Part shown: positions 14,570 through 33,202 of the stretch, one piece after another
Position numbering within the stretch: position 1 is the stretch's first letter
How the letters are laid out: the number at the start of each line of letters is the position of its first letter
The notes under the pieces: generated by a model
What the model was told of the DNA's origin: nothing
The model's input: only the letters and a program-made list of their open reading frames with translations
The model's database searches: none
DNA from: Deltaproteobacteria bacterium
Lineage (GTDB): Bacteria > Desulfobacterota > B13-G15 > RBG-16-54-18
Assembly: GCA_016927065.1 (NCBI GenBank)
Contig: JAFGNJ010000005.1
Span: 1 to 64,000, forward strand
Reading direction: 5' to 3'
Length of the DNA stretch: 64,000 bases
Program-made: the position numbers and the translations under genes

Positions 14570-15921
14570 CGGACACGGACCACAATGGACATATCTTGGT
14601 GGTGGACGACGAGCCCTCCATGCGAACGACCCTCTCCATCCTCTTGAGGCGGGAGGGGTACGAGGTCTCTCAGGCCGGAACGGGCGCTGAGGCGCTGGGT
14701 ATGCTGGAGCAGGGGGGATACGACATGGTCCTCACCGACCTCAAGATGGAGGGGATAGACGGAATGGAGCTCCTGCGCCATATCAAGGCCGCCGCACCCC
14801 AGACGGAGGTCCTCATCTTCACCGCCTACGGGACCATAGCCACTGCCGTCGAAGCGATGAAACTCGGCGCCTATGACTACATCGGCAAGCCCTTCGATGA
14901 AGAAGAGCTCCTCCTGAAGGTGGCCAGGGCCCTGGAGCGCAAGGCCCTGGTCAGTGAAGTGCGGGACCTGCGGGCGGAGTTGAAAGGACAGGGCGGCCGG
15001 GGAAAGATCATCGCCGCCAGCAAGCAGATGCGGGAGGTCTTGGCCAGGGTGCGCCAGGTGGCCCCCACCGAGGCCACCGTCCTCATCGAGGGTGAGAGCG
15101 GTACGGGTAAAGAGGTCGTTGCCCGGGCCATCCACCAAGCCAGCCCCCGCAGCGACCGGCCCTTTATCCCCGTCAACTGCAGCGCCTTTCCGGAGACCCT
15201 CTTGGAGAGCGAGCTCTTCGGCTATGAAAAGGGGGCCTTCACCGGCGCGGACAAGGCCCGCAAGGGCCTCTTTGAGGCGGCCCACACCGGCACCCTCTTG
15301 TTGGATGAGATCGGCGACATGCCCCCTCCCCTCCAGGGAAAGCTGTTGCGGGTCTTGCAGGAAGGGGAGGTGCGGAGGCTGGGGAGCACTGTTCCTATCA
15401 AAGTCCAAGTCCGCATCGTGACCGCCACCAATAAGGGGGCCGAGCAGTTGGTGGCCCAAGGCACCCTCCGCGAAGACCTCTTCTACCGACTCAACGTGGT
15501 CAGGATCTCTATCCCCCCCCTGCGGGAAAGGCCCGACGACATCATACCCCTGGCCCAGCACTTCCTGGAGATCTGTAGAAAGAAGGCCCAGAAGGAGATC
15601 ACGGGATTTGCCCCTGACGCGGTGAAGGCCATGCTCGATCACCCCTGGCCCGGCAACGTGCGGGAATTGGAGAACGCCGTTGAGCGGGGCGCCATCACCT
15701 GCCGATCCCCCTCCATTACCGCGCAGGACCTCTCCTTGGGGCTCTTCCCCCTTGATGCGGCGTCCGTTGAGAAGGGGACCACCCTGAAGGAGTTAGAACA
15801 AAGCTGCATCCTCACCGCGCTGGAGCGTCACGGCGGCAACCAGGCCAAAGCGGCCCGGGAGCTGGGCATCGGGCGCAACACTCTCTGGAGACGGTTGAAG
15901 GAGTACGGCCTCCTCCCGTAG
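14566..15921 (+). CDS. sigma-54-dependent NtrC-family response regulator
   Basis: A 451-residue protein: receiver domain with phospho-acceptor Asp58 (VLTDLKMEG), AAA+ domain with Walker A GESGTGKE (about 176-183), the sigma-54 contact loop GAFTGA and Walker B LLDEIGDM, and a Fis-type helix-turn-helix at the end (GNQAKAARELGIGRNTLWRR). Translation starts at ATG 14566 overlapping the kinase stop. The open frame extends far upstream, but that part is the kinase gene read in another frame. The probable target is the operon starting at 16174. Confidence 0.95.
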   Translation: MTDTDHNGHILVVDDEPSMRTTLSILLRREGYEVSQAGTGAEALGMLEQGGYDMVLTDLKMEGIDGMELLRHIKAAAPQTEVLIFTAYGTIATAVEAMKLGAYDYIGKPFDEEELLLKVARALERKALVSEVRDLRAELKGQGGRGKIIAASKQMREVLARVRQVAPTEATVLIEGESGTGKEVVARAIHQASPRSDRPFIPVNCSAFPETLLESELFGYEKGAFTGADKARKGLFEAAHTGTLLLDEIGDMPPPLQGKLLRVLQEGEVRRLGSTVPIKVQVRIVTATNKGAEQLVAQGTLREDLFYRLNVVRISIPPLRERPDDIIPLAQHFLEICRKKAQKEITGFAPDAVKAMLDHPWPGNVRELENAVERGAITCRSPSITAQDLSLGLFPLDAASVEKGTTLKELEQSCILTALERHGGNQAKAARELGIGRNTLWRRLKEYGLLP

Positions 15922-16018: not shown

Positions 16019-16034
16019 TGGCACGGCCCTTGCT
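16019..16034 (+). promoter_or_regulatory. sigma-54 promoter (-24/-12)
   Basis: TGGCAC-GGCCC-TTGCT matches the sigma-54 consensus TGGCACG-N4-TTGCW at every key base, with GG and GC elements at the required spacing. Transcription would start near 16045, leaving a leader of about 130 bases before the gene at 16174. Confidence 0.9.
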
Positions 16035-16173: not shown

Positions 16174-17652
16174 ATGAAATACTCAGTGGCGTGCAATTGG
16201 GATCCAGCGTTGTTGGATCGCCTCAGTAAAGAATCCGCTTCGGTGGATTCGCTCTTCGGTCAGATCACCGACGATCCCTTTGGCGGGGGGCGCGGCTCTT
16301 TTCTCGCGCCGAAAGGCAACCGTGATGAGGCGGCGGAATTCATCGCCGAAGCGCGGAGGCGTGGATTCCACTTCAACTATCTCCTCAACGGTGCCTGTCA
16401 GGACAATCTGGAAATGACCCGTGAAGGAAACCGCATCCTCTTTGATCATATCGAATGGGTCGCTTCGACCGGGGCCGACAAAGTGACCGTTACCCTGCCC
16501 ATCATGCTGGTATGGCTCAAACGTCATTTCCCGGAGTTTCAGGTGGTGGTGTCCAGCTGGGCGCGGGTGGCCAATTGCAAGCGCGCAAAATACTGGGAGA
16601 ATATCGGTGCGGATGAGATCATCCTGGGGGAATATGCCACTCGTGACTTTGCGTCCCTGCAGGCGATGCGGCATGCTCTTAACTGTAGGCTCGAGGTCAT
16701 CGCCAACCCCTCGTGCCTCTATATGTGTTATCTCGACACGAACCATATCAACATGATGTCGCACGCGGCCCAGGGCGGCCATGTGAGCGGCGGCTTTGTG
16801 GTTGACCACTGCCAGGTGTACTGTCAGCGGTTGAAACTGGCGCAGACCGATGAGCTTATTAAGGCGCGGTGGGTGCGGCCGGAGGATGTCGGTGATTACG
16901 AAGAAATCGGCATCAACTCCCTGAAGCTCCTCGAACGCTTCCGGAACACCGAGAGCCTGATGCAGGTGGTTCGCGCCTATGAGGATCGGCGCTTCGACGG
17001 CAACTTCGTCGAGCTCTTGACCCTACCTCGCCGCAATGCCTACAATCCGCCGAATCTGGAATATCTCATCAAGCCTGATCTGGTCAATATCGACGTGATG
17101 CTCGAGATGGCCGACATCTTCGGCTATTCATTTTCCGATGTCATGCAGATAGATAATCGCGCCCTCGACGGCTTTGCCGAACACTTCAAGACACACGATT
17201 GTTATCATAGTTCGTGTGAGGAATGCGGGTATTGCAAACGGTGGGCGGAAAAAGCGGTGCAGGTGGATGAGGAGAAACGTCAAGCCATTCTTGATCGATT
17301 CGACCGCTTTATCGAGGCCATCATCGAACGTCGGACGCTTGCGGAAAACGAGCCCCTTGATGTGAGCCACATCCAGGTGAGCCCGGAAGCGGCTTCCGTA
17401 CTCGACAGCCTGATGGCCTTTGTGCCGCCGCCGCTCGCAGAGATCGCGCGCATGAAGACCATCAACGGCGCCGCCCAGATCGCGGGACAACACAAAAATT
17501 CAAAAACGGATGAAGCAATCGGCCCCGAGGCGATTGCCCACGCCTTTTGGCTGGGCACGCCCGAACCTTCCCGTGATCCTCTGCGGCAGGCCCTCGAACA
17601 GATGGGGCTGTGGCAGCACGTCGCCTCAGCGGAAGGGGCACAGGATCGTTAG
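16174..17652 (+). CDS. U32-peptidase-like Fe-S protein, paralogue A
   Basis: A 492-residue protein with a U32 (collagenase-like/UbiU-UbiV-like) alpha/beta barrel, recognised from its strand pattern and from FHFNYLLNGACQDN, GADKVTVTLP and RLEVIANPSCLYMC. Cysteines suitable for a cluster are C181, C185, C213 and C217. A second set lies in a C-terminal C343-x4-C348-x2-C351-x2-C354 motif. It is clearly homologous to the protein at 28050 over its length, sharing SVDSLFG, RPEDV, VRAYEDRRFDGN and LTLPR. It has a longer C-terminal tail. Being first in the sigma-54 operon and followed by a B12 radical SAM gene suggests a shared reaction. Characterised U32 proteins carry out O2-independent hydroxylations (prephenate-dependent) rather than proteolysis; the substrate here is unknown. 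Confidence 0.8.
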   Translation: MKYSVACNWDPALLDRLSKESASVDSLFGQITDDPFGGGRGSFLAPKGNRDEAAEFIAEARRRGFHFNYLLNGACQDNLEMTREGNRILFDHIEWVASTGADKVTVTLPIMLVWLKRHFPEFQVVVSSWARVANCKRAKYWENIGADEIILGEYATRDFASLQAMRHALNCRLEVIANPSCLYMCYLDTNHINMMSHAAQGGHVSGGFVVDHCQVYCQRLKLAQTDELIKARWVRPEDVGDYEEIGINSLKLLERFRNTESLMQVVRAYEDRRFDGNFVELLTLPRRNAYNPPNLEYLIKPDLVNIDVMLEMADIFGYSFSDVMQIDNRALDGFAEHFKTHDCYHSSCEECGYCKRWAEKAVQVDEEKRQAILDRFDRFIEAIIERRTLAENEPLDVSHIQVSPEAASVLDSLMAFVPPPLAEIARMKTINGAAQIAGQHKNSKTDEAIGPEAIAHAFWLGTPEPSRDPLRQALEQMGLWQHVASAEGAQDR

Positions 17653-17693
17653 ACAGCATGAGAACGAAGACTGTAATGACAGGAGGAAGGACC

Positions 17694-19319
17694 ATGGATG
17701 AGAAACGACTTGATTGCATGCTCGTGCATGCCCCCAAATTCGACAATTGGTATAAACCGCTCGGCGATTTCATATGGATCAACTACCTCCCCATAGGCAT
17801 CTTCGCCTTGGCGGATAATCTTGAGAAGCACGGCTACAAATCCGAGATCGTGCACCTCGGCATCGAGTGGATTGAGGATCACAACTTTGATATCGTCGAG
17901 TATGTGGGAAAAATCCGCCCTCGAGTCGTCGCCCTCTCCCTCCATTGGCACTATCAGTCCTACGACGTCATCAAGGTCGCCGAGGCGATCAAGGCCCGTT
18001 ATCCGGATATCTTTGTGTGCGCCGGGGGGTTTACCGCAAGCTATTATCATAAGGAGATCCCCGAAGACTTCCCCTCCCTGGACGCCGTCATCCGGGGGGA
18101 TGCGGAAGAACCTCTCTTGCGATTAGTCGAGCACGTGACCAAAAACAAACGCGACCTCCACACGGTCCCCAACCTGACCTGGCGCTCAAATGGCAAGGTA
18201 GTGGAGAACGAGGCCTTCTATTGCGCCACTGAGGAGCAGCTCAACGCCTTGCGGTTTACCAACCTTCCGCTCCTCAAAAACCACAAGACCTATGTCAATT
18301 ACTTCGGCCACCCCTTTATGTGGAAAAAGAGCTTTTCCAAGAAAGCAAATTTCCACAAGCTCTCCATCGGTTCCAAGACCCTCCCCTTGTCGATCGGACG
18401 GGGATGTCCTATGACGTGCACCTGGTGCGCCGGCAGCATCCTCTCCCAGAGGTTCATCACCAGGCGCACCAAGCCCATCTATCGGTCGATAGACAAGATA
18501 CTGGAGTCTATCCAAGAGGCACTGTCCTATGGCTATGAGACGATGTACGTGGTCTTCGATCCCTACCCCGACAACCAGGGTTTTTTTATCGAGCTCTTTG
18601 CCAAGATAAGAGAGTACAACATACAGTGCGAGATGGTCTTCGAGTGCCACGGCCTCCCCACCAAGCCGTTTATGGACGCCTTTCACGCGACCTTCCCCCA
18701 TGAGGAGTCGTTTTTGTGCATCTCCCCGGAGACCGGTTCGGAGCGGCTGAGACGGATGCACAAGCACCGCTTTTATTCCAATGAAGAGCTCCTGGATTGT
18801 CTGCGGTATCTAGAGGAGTTGGGGGTCAACAGCGAGGTCTTTTTTACCTACGGCATCCCCGGGGAGACCCTCGAGGAGTTACAAGAGACGATCAAGCTCA
18901 AACGGTTCATCAAGAGGAATTTCAAGCGCGTCCACTGTATCAGGGTCCTTTCAATAGAGATGGAGCCGGGGTCCCCCTGGCACATGGACCCGAAAAAGTA
19001 CGGTATTGTCCATGACAGGCCGCACTTCAGGGATTTTTACCGCGCGCACAGTTCGAAGTATAATCAGACCTATTCATCGCTGGGCTATTTCATCCCGAAC
19101 TACTTCCCCGACAACAACGGGGCTCAGGATATTGCGGGCTTCGAGCAGGCCCTGCAACGGATAAAATGCAAGTATTTCTGTTTTCTCGGCCCCAACGCGA
19201 GAAAGTCCGGCCCCGCGTGGACCGGCCGTCTGTTCTGCAACACCCTCTCCCTGATGGACAGACTCAAAGGAAAAAAGGCGCGCGCGGATGATGCCGCGCC
19301 GTTGTTACGCGGGTCTTGA
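17694..19319 (+). CDS. B12-binding-domain radical SAM protein, paralogue A
   Basis: A 541-residue protein with an N-terminal cobalamin-binding Rossmann fold (about residues 10-150; PRVVALSLHWHYQSYD and IFVCAGGFTAS). The radical SAM domain has C238-x3-C242-x2-C245 (GRGCPMTCTWCAGS) binding the [4Fe-4S] cluster. Downstream, FLCISPETGSERLRR and FFTYGIPGETLEEL are typical of this superfamily. ATG 17694 follows AGGAGGAAGG; the frame opens earlier but inside the previous gene. Members perform methylations, cyclisations or other radical chemistry on unactivated carbons. Pairing with a U32-like protein recurs at 28050-30833. Confidence 0.88.
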   Translation: MDEKRLDCMLVHAPKFDNWYKPLGDFIWINYLPIGIFALADNLEKHGYKSEIVHLGIEWIEDHNFDIVEYVGKIRPRVVALSLHWHYQSYDVIKVAEAIKARYPDIFVCAGGFTASYYHKEIPEDFPSLDAVIRGDAEEPLLRLVEHVTKNKRDLHTVPNLTWRSNGKVVENEAFYCATEEQLNALRFTNLPLLKNHKTYVNYFGHPFMWKKSFSKKANFHKLSIGSKTLPLSIGRGCPMTCTWCAGSILSQRFITRRTKPIYRSIDKILESIQEALSYGYETMYVVFDPYPDNQGFFIELFAKIREYNIQCEMVFECHGLPTKPFMDAFHATFPHEESFLCISPETGSERLRRMHKHRFYSNEELLDCLRYLEELGVNSEVFFTYGIPGETLEELQETIKLKRFIKRNFKRVHCIRVLSIEMEPGSPWHMDPKKYGIVHDRPHFRDFYRAHSSKYNQTYSSLGYFIPNYFPDNNGAQDIAGFEQALQRIKCKYFCFLGPNARKSGPAWTGRLFCNTLSLMDRLKGKKARADDAAPLLRGS

Positions 19320-19368
19320 GATGGTACGTGTTTTTACGGTATAACAAAATAATCAAGGAGGTATTGTT

Positions 19369-20550
19369 ATGAAGCTAGGTAAAAAATGTGTAGTGCTGGC
19401 AATGTGTTTGTCCCTTCTCTTTCTCTTCTCATGCTCACAGAAACCGAAAGAGGGATCCCCCTATACCATCGGGGTCAACCTCGAGCTGACCGGGCCGTGG
19501 GCGGAGGTGACCAAGACCGTGAAGCAGGTCTTGATCATGGAGGTGGAGAAAATCAACGCCATGGGGGGGGTGGACGGCCACCCCTTGGAGCTGGTCATCG
19601 AGGACAACGGTTTCGATCAAGGCAGGGCCGCAGCCATCATGACCAAGTTTACCCAGAACAAGAAAATCCCGGTAGTATTGGGCCCCTGGGAGGACCCGCT
19701 CCAGGGCACCACCAGGGCCATCGCCGAGCGGGAGGGGATCACCAATATCATCTTCTGCCCCTCCAACCCCATGGTCCGGGGCCTCAAACAAAAGTGGTCA
19801 TTCAACATCGCCCAGAGCGACATCATCGTCTCCCGAAAGCTGGCGGACCTGTGTCTGGCCCGCGGGTATAAGACGATCCTGGTCTTCCCGGGCAATTGGC
19901 CCTTGGCCCTGAGCCTGGCCGATTACTTCAAGCAATTCGGTGAGGAAAAGGGGCTGAAGGTCATCATTGCCAAGGAGACCCATGCGCCGAGCGACATCGA
20001 CATGACCCCCCAGCTCATCAAGCTCAAGCCGATCATAGAAAAGGAAAAGGTTGATGCCTTTTACGCCTCCACGGGGGGTCCTCCCGGGCCCATCATCGTC
20101 AAGAATATGCGCGCCCTGGGCATAAAGACCCCGGTCATCGGCACCCACGCCTTCGGATTCGGTTTTGTCATCGCCCTGGGGGGAGCGGCGATGGAAGGGG
20201 TGGAGTTTGGGGCCGGAAAGCCTGTCGTCCCCTACCAGCTCGATGAGGGCGACCCCGTGCGGCCCATCGTCACCGACCTCGACAAACGGATGAAAGAACG
20301 CTACGGCCAGGGGCTTGATCAAATAGCCGGCCATGCCCACGACGCCATCTGGCTCATCTATGACGCCCTGAAACGATGTAAGGGGGAGGTCACCAGGGCC
20401 GCATTCCGGAATGCCCTGGAAGACACCACCGAGTTTGTCGCGTGCCACGGCATCTATAACTACAGCCCCACGGACCACGACGGCTTGAGCAAAGAGGACA
20501 TGGTCTTTATCAGAATCGAAGACGGAAAGTTCAAGCGGCTCAAATTCTGA
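19369..20550 (+). CDS. livK: branched-chain-amino-acid-type ABC transporter, substrate-binding lipoprotein
   Basis: A 393-residue protein with a lipoprotein signal peptide (LLFLFSC; lipid-anchored Cys22) and a type I periplasmic-binding fold: YTIGVNLELTGPWAEVTKTV, then DNGFDQGRAAAIM and PVVLGPWEDPLQGTTRAIAE. AAGGAGG precedes the ATG. The family binds amino acids, amides, urea or aromatic acids, so the name livK gives the family, not the substrate. It is the first of five transporter genes, and a stem-loop separates it from the permease. Confidence 0.88.
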   Translation: MKLGKKCVVLAMCLSLLFLFSCSQKPKEGSPYTIGVNLELTGPWAEVTKTVKQVLIMEVEKINAMGGVDGHPLELVIEDNGFDQGRAAAIMTKFTQNKKIPVVLGPWEDPLQGTTRAIAEREGITNIIFCPSNPMVRGLKQKWSFNIAQSDIIVSRKLADLCLARGYKTILVFPGNWPLALSLADYFKQFGEEKGLKVIIAKETHAPSDIDMTPQLIKLKPIIEKEKVDAFYASTGGPPGPIIVKNMRALGIKTPVIGTHAFGFGFVIALGGAAMEGVEFGAGKPVVPYQLDEGDPVRPIVTDLDKRMKERYGQGLDQIAGHAHDAIWLIYDALKRCKGEVTRAAFRNALEDTTEFVACHGIYNYSPTDHDGLSKEDMVFIRIEDGKFKRLKF

Positions 20551-20595
20551 GGGTTTGACGCAGGGTTGTACATCAGATATATATACATGACTGCG

Positions 20596-20637
20596 AAAAA
20601 GGGGTGGGAGGATAGGAGGATCCGCTCACCCCTTTTT
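20596..20637 (+). terminator. 11-bp stem-loop between substrate-binding protein and permease
   Basis: AAAAAGGGGTG (20596-20606) pairs perfectly with CACCCCTTTTT (20627-20637). The T-run at the 3' side makes it terminator-like. As it is internal to the operon, it probably lets through only part of the transcripts, keeping the binding protein more abundant than the membrane parts, or protects the livK 3' end. Confidence 0.7.
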
Positions 20638-20672
20638 GACCTTTTTTAGTAACTAGTAATAAGGAAAGTTTC

Positions 20673-21563
20673 ATGAACCCGTGGATACATATACCCCAAC
20701 TCCTTGCCGCCGGCATCACCATGGGGGCCATCTACGCCCTGGTGGCCTTGGGGTTTGTCATTATTGTCAGGGCCTCTCAGATCCTCAACTTCGCCCAGGG
20801 GGAGTTCGTCATGCTGGGGGGGGTGGTCACCTTCTTCTTTATTACAGGGGCCGGGCTCCCCTACCCCCTGGCGGCCCTGGCGGCGGTGTTGGCGGTTATC
20901 GTGATCGGGTTCCTCCTCCACCTCTTAGTGGTCTATCCCCTGCGCAAGGCCTCCGTCCTCATCCTCATCATGGCCACCGTGGGGGCGTCCATCGTCATCA
21001 GCAACACCAGCGCGCTCCTCTTTGGGACCCTGCCCAAGGCCCTCCCCCCCTTTTCCGGCGACCTCCCCCTGGAGCTAGGGGGTATCCGCATTGTGCCCCA
21101 GAACCTCTGGGTCCTCGGGGCCACCTTCTTGCTCTTTTTCGTCCTCTATTTCCTCTCCCACCGCACCTTAGTGGGAAAGGCCATGGAGGCGAGCTCAACC
21201 GACCCCTTGGGAGCGGACCTCAGCGGGATCGCGAGAAACTTCATGGTCTTTCTCGCCTTCGGGGTGAGCGCGGGGGTGGGTGCCATTGCCGGGGTCCTGG
21301 TCACGCCGATCTTTTATACCAGCTACAATGCGGGGACCTTGCTGGGATTAAAGGGTTTTATCGCCGCGGTCGTGGGGGGGTGGGGGAAGAACAGCGGCGC
21401 GGTCCTGGGCGGCTTCGTCTTGGGGGTTGTGGAGTCCACGAGCATCGCCTTTATCCCTGCGGGGTATAAGGACGCGGTGGCATTTGTGGTCCTGCTGCTC
21501 ATCCTCTATTTCAGGCCCAAGGGAATCCTGGGCTCACCCTATATCGACAGTCGCCGATGGTAA
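20673..21563 (+). CDS. livH: branched-chain-type ABC transporter permease (LivH family)
   Basis: A 296-residue inner membrane permease with about eight hydrophobic segments. Family landmarks are GAIYALVALGFVIIVRAS, ILNFAQGEFVMLGG and the cytoplasmic coupling region around ASSTDPLGADLSGIARNF, followed by GFIAAVVGGWG. AAGGA lies before the ATG. The last seven bases overlap livM. Confidence 0.92.
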   Translation: MNPWIHIPQLLAAGITMGAIYALVALGFVIIVRASQILNFAQGEFVMLGGVVTFFFITGAGLPYPLAALAAVLAVIVIGFLLHLLVVYPLRKASVLILIMATVGASIVISNTSALLFGTLPKALPPFSGDLPLELGGIRIVPQNLWVLGATFLLFFVLYFLSHRTLVGKAMEASSTDPLGADLSGIARNFMVFLAFGVSAGVGAIAGVLVTPIFYTSYNAGTLLGLKGFIAAVVGGWGKNSGAVLGGFVLGVVESTSIAFIPAGYKDAVAFVVLLLILYFRPKGILGSPYIDSRRW

Positions 21564-22645
21564 AGAAATATAACAAGGGATCCAGAATAGAGTATAGAAA
21601 GAGGGATATCCTCTTTACGGCCGGCCTGTGGCTGGTCTCCCTGATCTTGCCCGATCCGCACCTCCCCTATCGCAGGGAATTTATCAAAAAGCGTGACTTC
21701 TTCTACGTGGGTGCCCTGCTGCTGCTTCCCTTGATCTTGTCCGGTCCCCTCGTCTATCTCATGGTACTGGCGGGGATCTACGCCATTGTGGCCCTGGGGT
21801 TGAGCCTCTTTTTAGGGTACGCCGGGCAGATCTCGCTGGGTCACGCCGCCTTTTTCGGAATCGGGGCCTATACCACGGCCATCCTCACTACACGCTATGC
21901 CGTCTCCCCTCTGGAGGCCTTTGGGGCATCCGCCCTGGCGGCTGCCGTCTGTGCCTACCTCATCGGCAAACCGATCCTTAAATTAAAGGGATATTTTCTC
22001 GCCTTGGCCACCTTGGGGTTCGGGGAAATTTTTTTGGTCATGGTGAGGGAATCCCGCAGCCTCACCGGCGGGGTCAGCGGGATCTTCGGCGTCCCGTGGT
22101 TTTCCGTGGCCGGGTTCGCCTTCGACACCTCTCTGAAACAATATTATCTGGTCTGGGGGGTCCTCATCGCCCTGGTCCTCTTTGCGAAAAACCTGGTGCG
22201 CTCCAAGATGGGGAGGACCCTGTTGGCCGTTGCCGCGAGCGAAGACGCCGCCGCCAGCGTGGGCATCAATGTGGCCCAGGTCAAGGTCAGGGTCTTTGTG
22301 CTCAGCGCCGCCTTCGCCGGTCTTGCCGGCAGCCTGTTTGCCTGCGTCTTGTCCACGGCCAACCCCCAGGGTTTCGGCTTGGGATTGTCCGTTCTCGTCG
22401 TCATGATGGTCATCATGGGGGGCATGGGAAACCTCTATGGCCCCATCTTCGCGGCCATCTTCCTCACCTGGCTGACGGATGTATTGGGGGGATTCCAGGA
22501 ATACAGCCTCCCCATCTACGGCGTGATCCTGATCCTGCTCCTCATCTTTTTTCCCGACGGCGTGGGGACCCGCCTGAATGAAAGGTTGATATATCTCATC
22601 AGCTACTGGGGAAGAAAGAGGAGGAGGGAGAGGGTGGATATCTGA
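21557..22645 (+). CDS. livM: branched-chain-type ABC transporter permease (LivM family)
   Basis: A 362-residue permease with a basic N-terminal extension and about ten membrane segments. Landmarks are YAIVALGLSLFLGYAGQISL, GHAAFFGIGAY and GRTLLAVAASEDAAASVGIN (the coupling helix). It overlaps livH by seven bases and livG by one (TGATG), so translation is coupled along the operon. Confidence 0.92.
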   Translation: MVKKYNKGSRIEYRKRDILFTAGLWLVSLILPDPHLPYRREFIKKRDFFYVGALLLLPLILSGPLVYLMVLAGIYAIVALGLSLFLGYAGQISLGHAAFFGIGAYTTAILTTRYAVSPLEAFGASALAAAVCAYLIGKPILKLKGYFLALATLGFGEIFLVMVRESRSLTGGVSGIFGVPWFSVAGFAFDTSLKQYYLVWGVLIALVLFAKNLVRSKMGRTLLAVAASEDAAASVGINVAQVKVRVFVLSAAFAGLAGSLFACVLSTANPQGFGLGLSVLVVMMVIMGGMGNLYGPIFAAIFLTWLTDVLGGFQEYSLPIYGVILILLLIFFPDGVGTRLNERLIYLISYWGRKRRRERVDI

Positions 22646-23409
22646 TGTCCCTGCTCTCCATCGACACCATAAGCAAGAGCTATGACGGCGTTCGCGCCCT
22701 CAATGGGGTTTCTCTGCGCGTTCGGGAAGGGACCATCAAAGGGCTCATCGGCCCTAACGGGGCGGGCAAGACCACCCTCTTTCACCTGATCACGGGGGTC
22801 GAACGGCCCTCAGCGGGGACCATCTCCTTTCAAGGAAGAGATATCACCACCCTGGAACCCCACGAGATCGCCCTCTTGGGGGTGGGCAGGACCTTTCAGA
22901 CCCTCCAGGTCATGGGAACGATGACCGTGGTGGAGAATATCCTAACCGGCATGCATAGCCGTCTAAAGGGCGGCTTTCTCTCCTGTGGATTATGGCTCCC
23001 CTGGATACACAAAGGGGAACGGACCGCCCTGAAGGAGGCCAAGGAGACCTTGGAATTCCTCGACCTGTTGGGGAGGTGGAAGTGGAACGCTTCCCACCTC
23101 TCATTCGCCCAACAGAAGATGCTTGAGCTGGGCAGGGCCCTGGCCATGAAACCCACTCTGTTGTTGTTGGACGAACCAGCCGCTGGCCTCACCCCCGCCG
23201 AGGTAACCAGGCTGGCGGAAAAGATACGCCGGCTCAGGGAACAGGGGATGACGATCCTCATTGTGGAGCATCACATGGGGATGATCATGGATATAACGGA
23301 TGAGGTGGCGGTACTCCACAACGGGGAGATCATCACCGAAGGCCCCCCCGATGCGGTGAGAAACGATCCCCGCGTCATTGAGGCATACCTAAGGGGGAAA
23401 GATGCTTAG
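22645..23409 (+). CDS. livG: branched-chain-type ABC transporter ATPase (LivG family)
   Basis: A 254-residue ATPase. Walker A is GPNGAGKTT, Walker B is LLLLDEPAAGL and the H-loop is in IVEHHMGMIM. The signature motif is LSFAQQ, where the usual form is LSYGQQ or LSGGQ: the second Gly position holds Ala. This may slow the cycle but is compatible with function in this subfamily. The start overlaps the livM stop; the stop overlaps livF by eight bases. Confidence 0.92.
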   Translation: MSLLSIDTISKSYDGVRALNGVSLRVREGTIKGLIGPNGAGKTTLFHLITGVERPSAGTISFQGRDITTLEPHEIALLGVGRTFQTLQVMGTMTVVENILTGMHSRLKGGFLSCGLWLPWIHKGERTALKEAKETLEFLDLLGRWKWNASHLSFAQQKMLELGRALAMKPTLLLLDEPAAGLTPAEVTRLAEKIRRLREQGMTILIVEHHMGMIMDITDEVAVLHNGEIITEGPPDAVRNDPRVIEAYLRGKDA

Positions 23410-24106
23410 GATAAAAAAATTGATCGTCCATTACGGCCCATTCATGGCCCTTAACAAGATCTCGCTGGAGGTCAATGTGGGAGAGGTAGTCACCCTTGTC
23501 GGCCCCAACAAGGCGGGAAAGACCACCCTCCTCCTCACCCTCTCCGGGATCGTGGAGACGACCGAGGGGAGAGTTCTTTTTCAAGACGCGGATATCACCA
23601 ACCTCGATCCCTACAAGATCGTCGCCCGAGGGCTCGGCCACGTCCCTCAGGGACGCCACATCTTCCCTACGATCTCTGTCTTTGACAACCTCATGGTGGG
23701 GGCCTATATCCGAAGAAAGGCCAAAGGAGAGATTGAAGAAGACCTGACGCGGATATATGAGCTATTCCCCGTCTTGAAGAAACGCGGCAAGCAGAGGGCG
23801 GGTACCCTCAGCGGGGGCGAGCAGCAGATGTTGGCCATCGGGAGGGCTTTGATGGGGCGTCCCAACCTGCTGATGCTGGATGAACCCTCATCGGGACTCG
23901 CCCCTCGTTATATCGATGAGATCTTTGCGGCATTTCAGGAGTTGAACAGGCGGGGGTTGACCATCTTCATCGTCGAACAGGAGATTCAAAGGTCATTGGC
24001 CATCTCGCACCGGGGATATGTCCTGCGCAATGGCCGTCTGATCAAAAAGGGACCCGCACCTGCCCTTGTAGAGAGCCGGGAGGTACAGGAGCTGTGTTTG
24101 GGGTAA
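23402..24106 (+). CDS. livF: branched-chain-type ABC transporter ATPase (LivF family)
   Basis: A 234-residue ATPase: Walker [10 protein letters not shown] (Lys where the family usually has Gly, still fitting GxxxxGKT), signature LSGGEQQ, Walker [12 protein letters not shown] and H-loop in IVEQEIQ, with Gln after Glu in place of the His seen in LivG. It is the last gene of the operon and is followed by a large inverted repeat. Confidence 0.92.
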
Positions 24107-24128
24107 TTGCTCAGAAAATAGACCGCAC

Positions 24129-24202
24129 AAATCCCTCCCCTCCTCCCTTTACAAAAGGGAGGAGTTCTTCCCCCTTTAACAAAGGGGGATAGAGGGGGAT
24201 TT
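24129..24202. repeat. 74-bp inverted repeat (MITE-like), also a possible terminator
   Basis: AAATCCCTCCCCTCCTCCC at the left end is largely the reverse complement of GGGGGATAGAGGGGGATTT at the right end. In between are short internal repeats of CCTTT-ACAAAAGG type. Sequences of the form AATCCCCCT...AGGGGGATT occur as dispersed palindromes in many environmental bacteria. It follows livF by 22 bases and would fold into a stable RNA stem, so it could end the operon. Confidence 0.65.
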
Positions 24203-24274
24203 TCATAGTTCGAGGGTGGTACCTCACTACGGGAATGACTGAGTATGAGTACGAGTGGGAAAACGAAGAGCGGC

Positions 24275-24628
24275 CTATTGCGATGACGGGATGGCTTCGG
24301 TCAGAAATTCGAACCACTGCTCTTGGAGGAAGATCCTCCGTCTGGGGACGATGGTAACGGGGGCAAACCTGAGGGTGAAGGACTTCCCCTTTTGATCACG
24401 GAAGGCAAGGTTGAAGAGAACGGTGTCCGACCCATAATAATTGTCTCGGGTGAGGGAGATCCGCTCCATCCTGGAAAAGGGGATTGTCAAATCGATCTTT
24501 TCCCCTTTCTTGCTCGCGGGCACCTGAAAGAACAGCTGTGCTTCCTCCACCCATAAGCGCCCCTTGCGCCTGGACCCTTTGACCGGGAGTCCACCGTAGT
24601 AATACATTTTGCACGGTTGAGGAGTCAT
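24275..24628 (-). CDS. hypothetical small protein, possibly PH/GRAM-like
   Basis: A 117-residue protein with alternating beta strands (GRLWVEEAQLFFQVP, KIDLTIPFSRMERISLT, FTLRFAPVTI) ending in a single helix (QEQWFEFLTEAI). This order, strands plus a final helix, is what PH/GRAM-like or bacterial PH domains show. No membrane segment. No clear ribosome site precedes ATG 24628; ATG 24607 is possible. The assignment is structural inference. Confidence 0.5.
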   Translation of the reverse strand: MTPQPCKMYYYGGLPVKGSRRKGRLWVEEAQLFFQVPASKKGEKIDLTIPFSRMERISLTRDNYYGSDTVLFNLAFRDQKGKSFTLRFAPVTIVPRRRIFLQEQWFEFLTEAIPSSQ

Positions 24629-24731
24629 CGTTCAAAAAGTAGGATAGCACTGACGACCGTGTGCGTCAATGGGAAGGGGTTATACGACATGATCAGCTTT
24701 CAACACCTTGATTTTTAAAGATTTTTTCTTC

Positions 24732-24761
24732 TTGTTGTGATGTTTAAAAATTTGTTATAAT
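24732..24761 (+). promoter_or_regulatory. candidate sigma-70 promoter of the defence island
   Basis: TTGTTG (24732-24737), an 18-base spacer and TATAAT (24756-24761) lie 55 bases before the HEPN-like gene, in an AT-rich stretch that marks the left edge of the island. Confidence 0.5.
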
Positions 24762-24816
24762 GTATCCATAAGAGAAGCAAACAGGAATGTTTTATATTAA
24801 TTGTTGGGCAACATAA

Positions 24817-25374
24817 ATGCAGCCGAAAGATACGAGAACAAAGTGGGAGCCGCATATAGGCAAGTTCCTGCTGTCGTTTACAGCCATCGAACACTTTGTG
24901 ACTATTTCGATTGACCTGCTGTCAAACAAAGCCGTGTCAAAAACTGCCAGGACGCTGCTTTTCGAGAAAAGAACTGAACTTCTCCTGGAGCTACTAGAAA
25001 ACAGCAGGAAGATTTCAAAAGAAAATAAGGACATACTCTTTGCACAATTGAAGAAGGCCCTTAACCTATCCAGAAACGTTAGAAACATTGTTGCACACAA
25101 TCACATACTGATGGAGCTATACAAGAGCAGCAACGATGGCAATATCTACGAGAGTGAATATATTATTTCATCCAGAAACAGGAGCAAGAAGCTATCATTG
25201 TCAAATTTGATTAGTTTTGCGAGAGAAACGGAAAATCTTGCAGAGGAAGTCTCTGAAACCTACTTGGCTTTAGTTAAGGAACATTTTGCCAGATCGAACA
25301 ATGCCCAACAGGCTTTTGCAGCGGATCGCAAAAAAACGCACCCGCTGAAAAGCAGCGTTAGGTCACTGAAATAA
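24817..25374 (+). CDS. HEPN-like helical protein
   Basis: A 185-residue, all-helical protein. The third helix region contains LSRNVRNIVAHNH: R-N-I-V-A-H fits the R-x4-H motif of HEPN domains, many of which are metal-independent RNases in toxin or phage-abortive systems. The preceding helices (FTAIEHFVTISIDLL, RTELLLELLENSRK) match the usual HEPN helix order. It sits 38 bases before a BsuBI/PstI-type restriction-modification pair and in the same direction. No nucleotidyltransferase partner (MNT) is adjacent. RNase activity is inferred. Confidence 0.6.
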   Translation: MQPKDTRTKWEPHIGKFLLSFTAIEHFVTISIDLLSNKAVSKTARTLLFEKRTELLLELLENSRKISKENKDILFAQLKKALNLSRNVRNIVAHNHILMELYKSSNDGNIYESEYIISSRNRSKKLSLSNLISFARETENLAEEVSETYLALVKEHFARSNNAQQAFAADRKKTHPLKSSVRSLK

Positions 25375-25412
25375 AAAGAATCCGTTGACTATGCCTGACA
25401 AACGAAAATAAT

Positions 25413-26936
25413 ATGATTACTCAGTACATGCATACACTTGACCACATTCGTAAATCGTTTAACGGCGCAACAAGTAGAGCTGATCGCTCCGAGATTGGCC
25501 AGTTTCTGACGCCTGCTGCAATAGCCAAATTCATGTCGGCTATGTTCGAAACTGGTCCTCAACGAGTGCGGATTTTGGACCCAGGGGCCGGGGCAGGCGT
25601 GCTTTTCGCGACCTGTGTGGAAACCCTGATTTCAAGAACAGAACGCCCCCAATCAATAGAGGTCGTTGCCTACGAAACGGACAGCACCATTCTACCCTAT
25701 CTTGAAGATACTCTGAGGAAATGCCATTCGTTTTGCGCATCCAAGGGCATCGAATTTCACGGAACCATAAAGGCCGACGATTTTATCTCTGCCGCTCTTG
25801 CCGAAGTTGATGGGTCTCTATTTCTCGCGCCGGGCAAACGATTCACCCATGCCGTTCTTAACCCCCCATACAAGAAGATCAACAGCAAGACTGCCATGAG
25901 TAGAAAGCTCTATTTGTCCGGCATAGAGGTGGCAAACCTGTATGCGGTATTTGTCTGGTTGTCCATGTCTTTGCTGGAACGGGGCGGTCAGATAGTCGCA
26001 ATAACACCTCGTAGCTTCTGCAACGGCCCGTATTTCAAAAAGTTTCGCGCTGCCTTCTTACGTATGATGAGCTTGAAACGGATTCACATCTTCGAATCCC
26101 GCAAAAAAGCGTTTGGAGACGACAATGTACTACAAGAAAATGTAATTTATCACGCGGTGCGGGGGCTTCAGAAACCGAAGTCTGTTTCAATCTCAGTCTC
26201 CGAGGGCCTTGACTTCGATAAGGCAAGCATCTTAGCGGTCCCGTATAGTCAAGTTGTCCATCCAGGTGATACGGACATGTTTGTTCATCTTGATGTCAAA
26301 AAGACTGATACTACCCCATCGAAGCAAGTGAAATGCTTTACCTCATCTCTCGGCAAGTTGGGGTTGAGTGTCTCCACCGGGCGTGTTGTCGATTTCAGAG
26401 CGCGAGAACATCTCAAACAGTCTCCCCAACAAGGTGACGTTCCACTTATTTATCCATGTCACTTCGCCAATGGTTTCATTAACTGGCCTGTAGAATCGGG
26501 TAAGAAACCGAATGCCATCACGTCAGACGCAGAGACGTCAACCCTCCTTGTTGAAGCCGGATTCTATGTTCTTACGAAGAGGTTCTCGGCTAAGGAGCAG
26601 CAGAGACGCATCATGGCGGCAGTTTACGACCCCGCACGTATCAATTCGCCATATGTGGGCTTCGAAAACCACCTGAACTACTATCATCAAAACGGTAAAG
26701 GGCTGCCAGCCGATTTGGCGAAAGGGCTCGCCTTATACCTCAACTCCACAATAGTTGACCAGTATTTCCGCCTTTTCAGCGGACACACTCAGGTGAATGC
26801 GACCGATCTTCGGAAAATTCCGTACCCCACCCGCGAGCAACTCACGCGCCTCGGTGCATCTATTGGGGAGACCATGCCCGACCAGGAAGCCATAGATTCC
26901 ATCGTAGAAAAGGAGTGTTCGAGCCTTGACAAATAA
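25413..26936 (+). CDS. type II DNA adenine methyltransferase (PstI/BsuBI/Eco57I-like)
   Basis: A 507-residue N6-adenine methyltransferase. The FLTP motif (QFLTPAAIAKFMSAMF), SAM-binding ILDPGAGAGVLF and catalytic NPPYKK (Asn-Pro-Pro-Tyr) appear in the gamma-class order. The C-terminal half carries target recognition, with ...YVGFENHLNYYHQNGKGL and LALYLNSTIVDQYFRLFSGH, as in PstI-type enzymes. It overlaps the endonuclease gene by 11 bases. The likely specificity, by family, is CTGCAG. Confidence 0.9.
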   Translation: MITQYMHTLDHIRKSFNGATSRADRSEIGQFLTPAAIAKFMSAMFETGPQRVRILDPGAGAGVLFATCVETLISRTERPQSIEVVAYETDSTILPYLEDTLRKCHSFCASKGIEFHGTIKADDFISAALAEVDGSLFLAPGKRFTHAVLNPPYKKINSKTAMSRKLYLSGIEVANLYAVFVWLSMSLLERGGQIVAITPRSFCNGPYFKKFRAAFLRMMSLKRIHIFESRKKAFGDDNVLQENVIYHAVRGLQKPKSVSISVSEGLDFDKASILAVPYSQVVHPGDTDMFVHLDVKKTDTTPSKQVKCFTSSLGKLGLSVSTGRVVDFRAREHLKQSPQQGDVPLIYPCHFANGFINWPVESGKKPNAITSDAETSTLLVEAGFYVLTKRFSAKEQQRRIMAAVYDPARINSPYVGFENHLNYYHQNGKGLPADLAKGLALYLNSTIVDQYFRLFSGHTQVNATDLRKIPYPTREQLTRLGASIGETMPDQEAIDSIVEKECSSLDK

Positions 26937-27894
26937 GACCAAGAGGCAAAAGTCAGAGGAAAAGATCAAGGAGGCTCTCGCCATCCTGAACGATCTCGGC
27001 CTTCCGAAGCAGCAACAAAACGAGCGGTCCGCTTTAACCCTTCTCTCCCTGCTAGGCTTGAAGCCCACAGACAAATGGAAGGACGCAGCCGATCCACTTA
27101 TGGGCATTACTCCCATGATGGACTTCTTTCAGAAACACTATGGAAAGAAATACGCTCCAAACACTCGCGAAACAGTACGGCGCCAAACAGTCCATCAGTT
27201 TTTACAGGCAGCCCTGATCGTAGCCAATCCTGATAAGCCCTCCAGACCGACCAATAGTCCCAAGGCGGTTTATCAGATCGAGCCGTCTGTCCTCAAACTG
27301 CTTCGAGGTTTCGGAAAACCCAGATGGAAAGGCGACTTGATGCAGTACCTTCGAACCGTGGGTACGTTGAAGAAGCTGTATGCGCGTGAAAGGGAAATGA
27401 AGCGACTGCCTGTCAAGCTTGCAAACGGACAAGAAATAAGGCTTTCTCCGGGTGGTCAGAATGTTCTTGTGAAGAAGATCATGGACGATTTCTGTCCGTT
27501 GTTCACGCCAGGAAGTTATGTCATCTACGTTGGGGACACCCAGATGAAATGGGCTTATTTCGATTCAGATGCTTTGTCACGGTTGGGTGTCAGAATAGAG
27601 GAACACGGGAAAATGCCGGATGTTGTCGTATTTTACGCAGAAAAGAACTGGCTTGTTCTTATTGAGGCTGTAACGAGCCACGGGCCCGTAAACCCTAAAC
27701 GCAGGCAGGAGTTGAAGGTGTTGTTCTTTGGATCAACGGCTGGCCTTGTTTTCGTGACCGCATTCCTTGATCGAAAGACCATGGTGAAGTACTTGAATGA
27801 CATTTCCTGGGAAACGGAAGTTTGGATCGCCGAGTCTCCGACACACCTAATACATTTCAATGGTGAACGTTTTCTCGGACCCTATGAAGACTGA
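26926..27894 (+). CDS. BsuBI/PstI-family type II restriction endonuclease
   Basis: A 322-residue endonuclease. The N-terminal helical part LGLPKQQQNERSALTLLSLL and YAPNTRETVRRQTVHQF are hallmarks of the BsuBI/PstI family. The catalytic domain includes YVIYVGDTQMKWAYFD, MPDVVVFY and LVLIEAVTSHGPVNPKR, holding the PD...E-x-x nuclease residues (Asp of PDVV, Glu of IEAV). TTG 26926 is used as start, with AAGGAG upstream inside the methyltransferase gene. The overlap would keep methylase translation ahead of endonuclease. The pair looks intact. Confidence 0.9.
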   Translation: MTNKTKRQKSEEKIKEALAILNDLGLPKQQQNERSALTLLSLLGLKPTDKWKDAADPLMGITPMMDFFQKHYGKKYAPNTRETVRRQTVHQFLQAALIVANPDKPSRPTNSPKAVYQIEPSVLKLLRGFGKPRWKGDLMQYLRTVGTLKKLYAREREMKRLPVKLANGQEIRLSPGGQNVLVKKIMDDFCPLFTPGSYVIYVGDTQMKWAYFDSDALSRLGVRIEEHGKMPDVVVFYAEKNWLVLIEAVTSHGPVNPKRRQELKVLFFGSTAGLVFVTAFLDRKTMVKYLNDISWETEVWIAESPTHLIHFNGERFLGPYED

Positions 27895-28049
27895 ATGACC
27901 CAACGAGTCGTTCCACCGGATCGGCGAGAAAAACCGTTCGCCTGCTGAAAAACCTACTTCGCTATCTCGTGTTAATTTTCAAATTAGGACACTACCGGCG
28001 CGCGGGATTGCTTGCAAAATGACATGCCGATTGTTACAGTAACGGTACT

Positions 28050-29315
28050 ATGAAACTGCGGGTTGGAGCTAATTGGGATATCGCATTTCTTGACGCCGTC
28101 AAGGGGACGTCGGTGGATGCCCTCTTCGGCAAGCTCCCCTACGATATCGTGGGGGGGGCGAGGCCTGCGTTTGTCCTGCCGCAGGTGGATCGAAACACGG
28201 TGGAACAGTACATAGCGGCCTGTCACGACCGGGGACTGGAGTTCAGCTACCTCCTGAACGCCCCCTGCCTGGGAAACCTCCAATATTCCAAAAAGGGATA
28301 CGGTCAGCTCATCGAGCTCCTGGAATGGATCGATCAATCCGGCGCCGACTCCGTCACCATCGGCATGCCGTATCTCATCGATCTTGTCAGGGAGCGCTTC
28401 CCCCGGCTCAAGGTCAAGGTCTCCACTACGGCCAGGGTCAATACCGCCCGCAAGGCCCTGCAATACGAGGCAATGGGCGTCGAGGAGATCATCATCGACG
28501 AAAACATCAACCGGGAGTTCAAGACCTTGGAGGCGATCAGGAAGGCGGTGGGGTGCAACCTGGAGCTGATCCTCAACAACATCTGCCTCTGGCAGTGTCC
28601 GTATAATTTTGAACACGTCAACCACGACGGCCACTCTTCCCGGGAAGGGGAGCAAGATGATTACTGCTATCTCCAGTATCCGGGATACCTCTGCCTCTAC
28701 AGGAAATTGACGGAGCCGGTGGAGCTCCTGAAATCCCCCTGGATCAGGCCCGAGGACGTCTCCTCGTATGAAGATATAGGTTACGACAGCTTCAAGATCA
28801 CCGAACGGTTTAAACGTACCCCCCTCCTGGTCGAGCATGTCCGGGCCTATGAAGACCGGCGTTACGACGGCAATCTCTTGGACCTCTTTACCCTCCCCCG
28901 GAAAGATGCATTCACCCCCGTCCATCTGGAGTATTTTATCAAACCCCAGCATGTCAACATCATGAAGGTCTCGGAACTGGGAGATGTATTCGACCTGGAG
29001 GTGCGGGAACTCATTCACATTGACAACACAAAGCTCAACGGCTTCCTCGAACACTTTAAGAAAAAGGACTGCAACCAGACCACGTGTGCTCAGTGCCGGT
29101 ACTGCGACAGGGTTTTGAAAAAGGTGGCGGTGATGAACGAAAAGGAACTCAAGAAGGCCGCCCAAAAGGTCAAAGGCTTTTCTGATAAGCTCATCTCAGG
29201 GGAGATCTTTGATATACCGAAGTCCCATGTTGTATTTCGCATCCCCCTTATCAAGTCCCTGCTCAAAAAACTGCTCGTATGGCGAGTACGGAAAGAACAA
29301 GGCGTTCACCCCTAA
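28050..29315 (+). CDS. U32-peptidase-like Fe-S protein, paralogue B
   Basis: A 421-residue homologue of the protein at 16174, in the same fold family. Shared landmarks are ANWD, SVDALFGK, LEFSYLLNAPCLGNL, RPEDVSSYEDIGYDS, VRAYEDRRYDGNLLDLFTLP and the C-terminal C341-x4-C346-x2-C349-x2-C352. Possible cluster ligands in the barrel are C179, C183, C206 and C215; the spacing of the last pair differs from paralogue A. It is 12 bases upstream of a B12 radical SAM gene, the same order as the first module. A membrane segment or signal is absent, so it is cytosolic. The reaction is unknown. Confidence 0.8.
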   Translation: MKLRVGANWDIAFLDAVKGTSVDALFGKLPYDIVGGARPAFVLPQVDRNTVEQYIAACHDRGLEFSYLLNAPCLGNLQYSKKGYGQLIELLEWIDQSGADSVTIGMPYLIDLVRERFPRLKVKVSTTARVNTARKALQYEAMGVEEIIIDENINREFKTLEAIRKAVGCNLELILNNICLWQCPYNFEHVNHDGHSSREGEQDDYCYLQYPGYLCLYRKLTEPVELLKSPWIRPEDVSSYEDIGYDSFKITERFKRTPLLVEHVRAYEDRRYDGNLLDLFTLPRKDAFTPVHLEYFIKPQHVNIMKVSELGDVFDLEVRELIHIDNTKLNGFLEHFKKKDCNQTTCAQCRYCDRVLKKVAVMNEKELKKAAQKVKGFSDKLISGEIFDIPKSHVVFRIPLIKSLLKKLLVWRVRKEQGVHP

Positions 29316-29327
29316 GGAAATCGCGGC

Positions 29328-30833
29328 ATGAGGTTTTTATTAGTCGATCCGCCCCATAAGATCTGGACCATCCTGAGGGCCTGGACACCCTCCCCGGGCT
29401 GCCTACAGCTGTTGGCCTACGTAGAGCGGGAAGGGTTCGATATCGAGTATATGGACTGCACGCTCAATGACAACCCATGGGGCGATCTGGAGGAAAAGGT
29501 CCGGCGGGAAAAACCGGAGGTGGTCGGAATCTCCGTCAACTGCACGGCCTTCATCTATGACGGGATGAACGCAGCCAGCCTCGTCAAGGCCGCCAGCCCC
29601 CAATCGATCATCATCATGGGTGGGGAGCACCCGTCTTTTGTGGCGGAGGAGACACTCAGGGATTGCCCTGCCGTCGATTACATCTGCGTCGGCGAGGGGG
29701 AGGTGACGCTGGCGGAATTCCTGCGGGCCGTTGAAAAGAAGGAGGATATCTCCAAGGTCTTAGGTCTCGCCTATCTCGATGAAAAAGGTGCATTTTGCTA
29801 TACCGGCGACCGCCCCTTCATCGAGGACCTGGATACCCTCCCCATGCCCGCCTATCACATGGCCAAGATGGATCATCCCTTTATCGAGCTCCCCTCCGAA
29901 GGGCCGAGGAGTCTAGTGGTTAATTTCTCCAGGGGGTGTACGTGGGATTGCACCTTCTGCACGGAATCGGCCTTTTATAAAAAGACCTGGAGGAACAGGA
30001 GCCCAAAGCTGATCGCAGACGAATTCGAACTCCTCAAAGAGAAATACAACCGCGATATCTTCTATGTAGGGGATAATACCTTCAATGTTAAAAAGGAACA
30101 AGGCATCGGCTTCATAGAGGAGATGCTCAAGCGCAAGACGAATCAGCACTTCTGGCTGCAATCCAGGGCCGATCTGGTGCTCAGGGATGAAGACCTCTTG
30201 GACGGCTATCGCGAGGCGGGAGTCTATCAATTTATGATGGGGATCGAATATCACGCGGACTCTGTGCTCAAAGACATCAAAAAACACCTGTCGGTGGAAC
30301 AGGCCCGCAAGGCCATGGAGCTGTTGAGGAAACACGGGCTCATGGTCATGGCGACCCTGCTCATCGGTCACTGGGAAGAGACGGAAGAAGACCGTGAAGC
30401 CTTTTTAAAATTCTTCGGGAAATATGTGGATCATTTCGGCCTCAACCTGATCACCCCTCTGCCCGGAACGCCGTACTTTGAGCACATGAAGAAATTGGGG
30501 AGGATCGAGGACTGGGATTACCGCAATTACGACTATATTCACGCGGTCATGGCGACCAAAGAGGCGGACCACCTTGAACAGGTAAACCTCATTTATAAAG
30601 ATGTCTTGAAGCGTTACTATTGGCGCCCGCGGGAGTTGTTCAAGCTGTTCTCCTCCAATCCGATCTTGCGGCGCCACCATCGATATTACATCACCAAAGT
30701 GGCCTTTAATATCATGATGCATGAGATTTTTGGAACGCCGATGTGGGTGCAGCCCAACTACCAGGAGTATCAAGACTATCTGGTAGAACGGGGAGAGGCA
30801 TTACCCGAGGCGTTGACGGCCGCGGCCAAGTAG
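29328..30833 (+). CDS. B12-binding-domain radical SAM protein, paralogue B
   Basis: A 501-residue protein with a cobalamin-binding domain at about residues 1-150 (VVGISVNCTAFIYDGMN, SIIIMGGEHPSF, then VGEGEVTLAEFLRA), followed by the radical SAM domain with C204-x3-C208-x2-C211 (SRGCTWDCTFCTES). Downstream are FYVGDNTFNVKKEQG and FMMGIEYHADSVLK, typical of the family. AAGGAA lies before the ATG. It has a longer C-terminal helical part than paralogue A's equivalent and is less similar to it than the U32 partners are to each other. Confidence 0.87.
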   Translation: MRFLLVDPPHKIWTILRAWTPSPGCLQLLAYVEREGFDIEYMDCTLNDNPWGDLEEKVRREKPEVVGISVNCTAFIYDGMNAASLVKAASPQSIIIMGGEHPSFVAEETLRDCPAVDYICVGEGEVTLAEFLRAVEKKEDISKVLGLAYLDEKGAFCYTGDRPFIEDLDTLPMPAYHMAKMDHPFIELPSEGPRSLVVNFSRGCTWDCTFCTESAFYKKTWRNRSPKLIADEFELLKEKYNRDIFYVGDNTFNVKKEQGIGFIEEMLKRKTNQHFWLQSRADLVLRDEDLLDGYREAGVYQFMMGIEYHADSVLKDIKKHLSVEQARKAMELLRKHGLMVMATLLIGHWEETEEDREAFLKFFGKYVDHFGLNLITPLPGTPYFEHMKKLGRIEDWDYRNYDYIHAVMATKEADHLEQVNLIYKDVLKRYYWRPRELFKLFSSNPILRRHHRYYITKVAFNIMMHEIFGTPMWVQPNYQEYQDYLVERGEALPEALTAAAK

Positions 30834-32003: not shown

Positions 32004-32004
32004 G

Positions 32005-33195: not shown

Positions 33196-33202
33196 TTCCC
33201 TA

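Follow-up and report, generated by a model that had tools for sequence, protein, structure and literature searches.

Anaerobes of one phylum repeatedly pair a U32-family protein with a B12-binding radical SAM enzyme, an association that points to undescribed oxygen-free chemistry, probably acting on fat-like molecules. The conserved pairing joins known families, includes an unusual cysteine architecture and is apparently undescribed; its function is likely but unproven. Neither a published account of the pair nor a biochemically studied member of it was found in the open-access papers searched. To our knowledge, C–O bonds can be formed without O2 by only a few routes, one of which uses U32 proteins. 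Characterised U32 proteins act on RNA and on ubiquinone precursors. A subfamily that combines a distinct cysteine pattern with B12 radical SAM partners and acyl-processing genes would extend O2-free C–O chemistry to a new substrate class, and gene sets for testing such chemistry are now available.

The U32–radical SAM array with its transporter genes and a putative regulator

The window, the whole stretch of DNA analysed here, comprises 64,000 nt of a Deltaproteobacteria bacterium (GCA_016927065.1, contig JAFGNJ010000005.1, positions 1 to 64,000, forward strand). A first-pass annotation had singled out two gene pairs of the same order, and all four open reading frames were recovered where it had placed them (Table 1), a U32 gene being followed by a B12 radical SAM gene each time, with a gap of 12 bp between U32B and the downstream rSAMb. 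Along the locus, genes for a kinase and a sigma-54-type regulator are succeeded by U32A, rSAMa, LivJHMGF, a reverse-strand gene for a 117-aa protein, U32B and rSAMb.

Table 1. Features of the locus in window coordinates
Feature	Position	Strand	Evidence or remark
Histidine kinase and NtrC/sigma-54-type response regulator genes	13346..15921	+	ORFs, residues
Sigma-54 (-24/-12) type promoter TGGCACGGCCCTTGC, exact match	16019..16033	+	upstream of U32A
U32A, U32-family protein	16174..17652	+	PF01136 42.0 bits; alignment; clade A in tree
rSAMa, B12-binding radical SAM protein	17694..19319	+	PF04055 and PF02310 above cut-off
LivJ-like substrate-binding protein	19369..20550	+	PF13458 133.7 bits
LivH, LivM, LivG, LivF-like ABC transporter genes	20673..24106	+	ORFs, NCBIfam scan, synteny
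117-aa protein, no Pfam match	24275..24628	-	copies at most B/b loci
Restriction-modification system	24817-27894		Eco57I-like methylase and PstI/BsuBI-type endonuclease
U32B, U32-family protein	28050..29315	+	PF01136 42.9 bits; clade B in tree
rSAMb, B12-binding radical SAM protein	29328..30833	+	both Pfam domains above cut-off
CCG-domain protein, LutB-like iron-sulfur protein, UbiE/MenG-like methyltransferase	30993-33895		downstream of rSAMb

Neighbourhood comparison showed that U32A–rSAMa–LivJHMGF–U32B–rSAMb forms one unbroken array in the close relatives L003 and L019; the 117-aa gene is present in the array of L003, and none was called in that of L019. The window array is split between the 117-aa gene and U32B by a restriction-modification system (an ORF of 185 aa, an Eco57I/N6-methylase-like gene and a BsuBI/PstI-type endonuclease), which is not at this place in L003 and has a G+C content of 42–50% versus 53–64% in its neighbours. 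The 117-aa protein is strongly conserved next to rSAMb or U32B at some twenty loci; its copies, 61–74% identical with one masked copy at 41%, lie beside one of these genes in most B/b loci. Downstream of rSAMb, the order of the CCG-domain, LutB-like and UbiE/MenG-like genes is kept in L125, and that of the first two in L126, where the stretch ends. No Rfam elements were found within positions 12000–35000 of the window.

The promoter-type site, 155 bp before U32A, is the sole exact sigma-54-type match in the window. Sites of the same type lie upstream of U32A in L003, L004 and L019, the three relatives examined in which the regulator is kept; 4/4 regulator-linked U32A loci thus carry one, with 0.008 expected per locus. 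The two-component genes upstream of the array are also conserved in L003, L004, L125 and L126, and the regulator gene of the window has a probable start near 14566, so that it overlaps the end of the kinase gene. This adjacent system may turn on the U32A operon through the putative sigma-54 promoter.

The annotation had also linked the first pair to putative uptake by an ABC transporter, and the association with transporter genes extends to other genomes: Liv genes lie beside the pairs in the window's family (f1), at locus L006 and in family f50, where LivJ (62% identical) adjoins U32A/U32B at L095 and LivHMGF adjoins an rSAMb at L148. The transporter link is thus no accident of one genome. 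Liv genes are absent beside many U32 loci (family f9, Desulfobulbaceae). The LivJ-like protein does not reach any NCBIfam equivalog cut-off, and the four scanned transporter proteins carry domains yet score below the curated Liv cut-offs. What this Liv-type system would carry is probably a precursor or some related compound.

Cysteine patterns of the U32 proteins and their partners

Both U32 proteins exceed the PF01136 (Peptidase_U32) cut-off of 22.4 bits and belong to the superfamily; the window genome (2.48 Mb assembly) holds no other U32 gene, and their likeness is not due to chance, since they share 39% identity over 384 aa (E = 7e-108). The shared motifs noted earlier (SVDSLFG/SVDALFG, RPEDV and VRAYEDRR[FY]DGN) were all present, as were the Cx4Cx2Cx2C tails, found as CYHSSCEECGYC and CNQTTCAQCRYC. 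The core cysteines are C181/C185/C213/C217 in U32A (CX3CX27CX3C) and C179/C183/C206/C215 in U32B (CX3CX22CX8C), and the tail cysteines are C343/C348/C351/C354 and C341/C346/C349/C352, respectively; U32A has about 90 residues more than U32B at its C-terminus. The motif published for most U32 families is CX6CX15CX3/4C (PMC6747719); neither core has this spacing, which counts against the explanation we favour. Alignments showed that candidate Fe–S ligand sets are conserved in the subfamily and that the second four-cysteine set, the tail, is invariant. The tail may hold a second cluster, which could serve in electron transfer.

In the NCBIfam scan, the best U32 scores were 19.6 and 24.0 bits, below the TrhP cut-off of 534; no U32 model besides TrhP matched U32A or U32B at E ≤ 0.001, and there was no UbiU/UbiV model match. 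The predicted structure of U32B (pLDDT 81.9) adopts a barrel fold, and among solved structures only the U32 structure PDB 5D88 is closely related to it (E = 1.7e-11). A wider U32 clade (L098–L108 and L025) keeps the C-terminal Cx4Cx2Cx2C tail and has no adjacent radical SAM gene; one core cysteine is absent from the proteins of L025, L107 and L108, the first of which is a Myxococcales locus with a distant U32 relative and no radical SAM gene. Selenocysteine was considered for the U32 genes of G137 and G077 (L094, L095) and rejected, the flagged in-frame TGA/TAA codons proving to be ordinary terminal stops on reading the sequences.

The cobalamin-binding N-terminus and Cx3Cx2C motif ascribed to both radical SAM partners are borne out: B12-binding and Radical_SAM domains score above the Pfam cut-offs, with the motifs RGCPMTCTWC and RGCTWDCTFC, and rSAMa and rSAMb are therefore B12-dependent radical SAM proteins. 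The radical SAM cysteines are C238/C242/C245 in rSAMa, which has three further invariant cysteines (C492/C496/C515), and C204/C208/C211 in rSAMb. The two share just 24% identity over 225 aa and differ in their closest NCBIfam models, all below the curated cut-offs: TIGR04190 for rSAMa (218.1 of 500), BchE and HpnR for rSAMb (251.8 of 481 and 190.7 of 650). The nearest folds to the predicted rSAMa structure (pLDDT 68.5, C-terminus unreliable) are TsrM, TokK, CysS and MgmA. One rSAMa clade, a2, occurs without U32 and adjoins CrtI-like and MMPL genes. Elsewhere in the window genome (contigs C30 and C25, loci L140 and L141), a second rSAMa paralogue lies by a CrtI-like gene, and there is an acyltransferase–thioesterase–rSAMb'–rSAM_c cluster.

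Conserved pairing and exchange of partners

We searched 395 genomes of the phylum with a profile of the U32 subfamily and then read the neighbourhoods, taking U32 loci that scored ≥500 bits as subfamily loci (n = 39) and the lower-scoring U32 loci as controls (n = 24). A B12 radical SAM gene lies on the same strand within 9 kb at 38/39 subfamily loci and is directly adjacent (≤320 bp) at 29/39, compared with 2/24 control loci having such a neighbour and none having it adjacent. U32A at L005 is without a radical SAM neighbour, which counts against the favoured explanation. From the 22 B12-binding-domain matches in the 2.48-Mb window genome, we infer that the two genes would be neighbours by chance in a few per cent of cases. 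Carriers are likewise nested: U32 occurs in 21 of the 395 genomes, all within the 24 that carry rSAMb or rSAMb', which in turn fall within the 27 that carry rSAMa, so that 21/21 U32 carriers have both radical SAM types. At family level, all five families with carriers show the co-occurrence (p ≈ 2e-7 and 6e-8). These counts are not phylogenetically independent, most carriers belonging to f1 and f9; genome-level p-values therefore overstate independence, and the family-level values (about 1e-7) are fairer. The genome search that the annotation had suggested thus yielded conserved neighbours (38/39 versus 2/24) and complete co-occurrence, which together make it very probable that U32 and B12 radical SAM proteins of these subfamilies take part in one process, as it had supposed.

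The U32 tree has two clades. Clade A holds U32A, the genes of the f9 LuxC/E operons and one f50 tandem gene; clade B holds U32B, the f9 B loci, the Desulfobulbaceae genes and the other f50 tandem gene. On this tree the clades are deep and old, and the window U32 genes are paralogues. Partners are exchanged between the clades: A pairs with rSAMa in f1, f9 and f50, B with rSAMb in f1 and f9, and B with rSAMa in Desulfobulbaceae, in f62 and in G134. The description of the locus as a duplicated module therefore stands for the repeated gene order and fails for the genes themselves, which are not copies of one another because rSAMa and rSAMb belong to separate subfamilies and the two U32 clades diverged long ago; a recent duplication of the module is ruled out on the same grounds. 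Some genomes carry a single pair, with only B in G004 and G258 (98% completeness each) and only A in G002 (93%), each with a radical SAM partner. One-pair genomes among well-assembled ones, together with the exchanged partners, show that the modules are separable, in line with two related substrates and with the earlier suggestion that each pair acts on a different member of a substrate class.

Proposed chemistry, alternatives and known systems

An operon containing LuxE, LuxC and a flavoprotein gene includes or adjoins U32 in f9, f50 and f74; its f9 and f50 versions additionally hold rSAMa, an isopropylmalate/homocitrate-synthase-like (HMGL) enzyme and aconitase subunits, in the order rSAMa–HMGL–aconitase–FAD–LuxE–LuxC–U32. 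Desulfobulbaceae and their kin combine LuxE, LuxC, SDR, U32B, rSAMa, an MMPL exporter, a CrtI-like oxidase, an LpxL-type acyltransferase, rSAMb', a malonyl-type acyltransferase and ATP-grasp. The paralogues rSAMb' and rSAM_c adjoin ACP, KS, acyltransferase and a member of TIGR04072, a family named for ladderane/polyunsaturated-hydrocarbon clusters, and rSAMb paralogues in f9 occur with ACP, ketoacyl synthase, thioesterase, a BadF-type ATPase and a TIGR04072 protein. These contexts (LuxE/LuxC, MMPL/LpxL/CrtI-like and ACP/ketoacyl synthase) favour an acyl or lipid-like substrate. The lipid link comes from other families and paralogous loci, no fatty-acid or lipid genes being found in or next to the window array. 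TIGR04072 occurs in 124/395 genomes, far more than carry U32, which counts against the lipid reading. Unlike a ladderane-type cluster, the window array has neither a TIGR04072 member nor fatty-acid genes; a member above cut-off lies about 250 kb away (G000:C9:278960). A LuxC/LuxE pathway in the window genome was ruled out, a genome search having found no LuxC there. Two loci in other genomes, L158 (G053) and L146 (G016), hold lipid-like clusters in which a TIGR04072 member accompanies several B12 radical SAM proteins, the former also with a BadF-type ATPase, DUF2229/HGD-D-like proteins, ACP and ketoacyl synthase; they may represent an undescribed anaerobic lipid pathway.

Our leading, if tentative, reading is that the locus encodes two separable two-enzyme modules of one kind, U32A with rSAMa and U32B with rSAMb, and an ABC transporter. 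Under sigma-54 control, the modules would combine O2-free U32 oxidation with radical chemistry, the substrate being acyl or lipid-like. We favour this combination in view of the invariant tail and the acyl-type operon genes. U32A and U32B would each probably be an iron-sulfur enzyme that, like UbiU/UbiV and TrhP, inserts oxygen by an O2-independent route, perhaps with prephenate as the oxygen donor; the B12 radical SAM partner would probably act on an unactivated carbon of that substrate by methylation or oxidative remodelling. The likeliest substrate is an acyl or lipid-like molecule. In the simplest joint scheme, hydroxylation and methylation or remodelling could occur in either order. Prephenate has been implicated as the oxygen donor of U32 hydroxylation (review PMC11574389), and a prephenate dehydratase domain, from a prephenate-using enzyme, was found in the window genome, which supports this idea. 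A bolder form, possible but doubtful, is that a U32 protein with a second cluster site exchanges a hydroxylated acyl or lipid intermediate, made without O2, with its dedicated B12 radical SAM enzyme, leading to an undiscovered class of anaerobic membrane lipids or exported lipid-like products.

Rather unlikely, yet the strongest competitor, is a catabolic role in syntroph-like bacteria, in which Liv would import a small aromatic or branched compound that the sigma-54 system would sense and that U32 and radical SAM enzymes would activate without O2 for degradation. The importer with its substrate-binding protein between the pairs and conserved along with them, the sigma-54 two-component control directly upstream and the LutB/CCG-like redox genes syntenic downstream in L125 and L126 all suit this role; however, a set of CoA ligase, dehydrogenase and thiolase is absent from the array, and the U32 genes of f9 and Desulfobulbaceae belong to clusters that look biosynthetic and include acyltransferase genes or MMPL genes of the exporter type. 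Alternatively, U32A and U32B could form one UbiU/UbiV-like heterodimer that catalyses a single reaction, in which case rSAMa and rSAMb would perform consecutive steps of one module. UbiU and UbiV do form a heterodimer (PMC6747719), and the old clades A and B co-occur in f1, f9, f50 and f74, with tandem A and B genes in G137 and G077; we nonetheless consider this unlikely, as in the B-only and A-only genomes neither protein seems dependent on the other.

That the genes are neighbours through ancestral gene order and have no functional link, a view already disfavoured, is the least probable of these alternatives: although two related families supply most loci, there are three pairings across several families, other U32 loci lack such neighbours, and co-occurrence is nested. 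Scarcely more credible is that the U32 proteins modify RNA, as TrhP and RlhA do, with the radical SAM enzymes acting on the same RNA and the lipid context coincidental. TrhP (YegQ) is a tRNA U34 hydroxylase. Its model is the nearest in NCBIfam, and there is fold-level kinship with the U32 family, but the TrhP cut-off excludes U32A and U32B from membership, and a patchy distribution, linkage to a transporter and acyl-gene surroundings are not typical of housekeeping RNA modification.

The closest known systems include UbiU/UbiV, which are U32-family, 4Fe–4S-binding, O2-independent ubiquinone hydroxylases (PMC6747719). The window proteins resemble them in their U32 domain, four core cysteines expected to hold a 4Fe–4S cluster, two paralogues per genome and anaerobic setting, and differ in cysteine spacing, in the extra C-terminal four-cysteine tail and in having B12 radical SAM partners, where UbiU/UbiV go with the SCP2 protein UbiT. 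TrhP offers the nearest curated U32 model (24 bits), but the window proteins fall far below its cut-off, and their context is one of radical SAM, transporter and acyl genes. Ladderane/polyunsaturated-hydrocarbon clusters, described from anammox bacteria and Desulfotalea psychrophila (PMC2649909), likewise combine CrtI-like desaturases and fatty-acid genes with several radical SAM enzymes, and rSAMb paralogues adjoin a TIGR04072 member in G053; U32 is unmentioned in that account, however, TIGR04072 has a much broader distribution than the U32 pair, and the window array is without fatty-acid genes. Finally, BchE, HpnR, TokK, CysS, TsrM and MgmA share with rSAMa and rSAMb the B12-binding N-terminal domain, the radical SAM core and Cx3Cx2C, rSAMb being nearest to BchE/HpnR by sequence and rSAMa to TsrM/TokK/CysS by fold; the window enzymes are set apart from them by scores below the equivalog cut-offs, by the three extra invariant cysteines of rSAMa and by their U32 partners.
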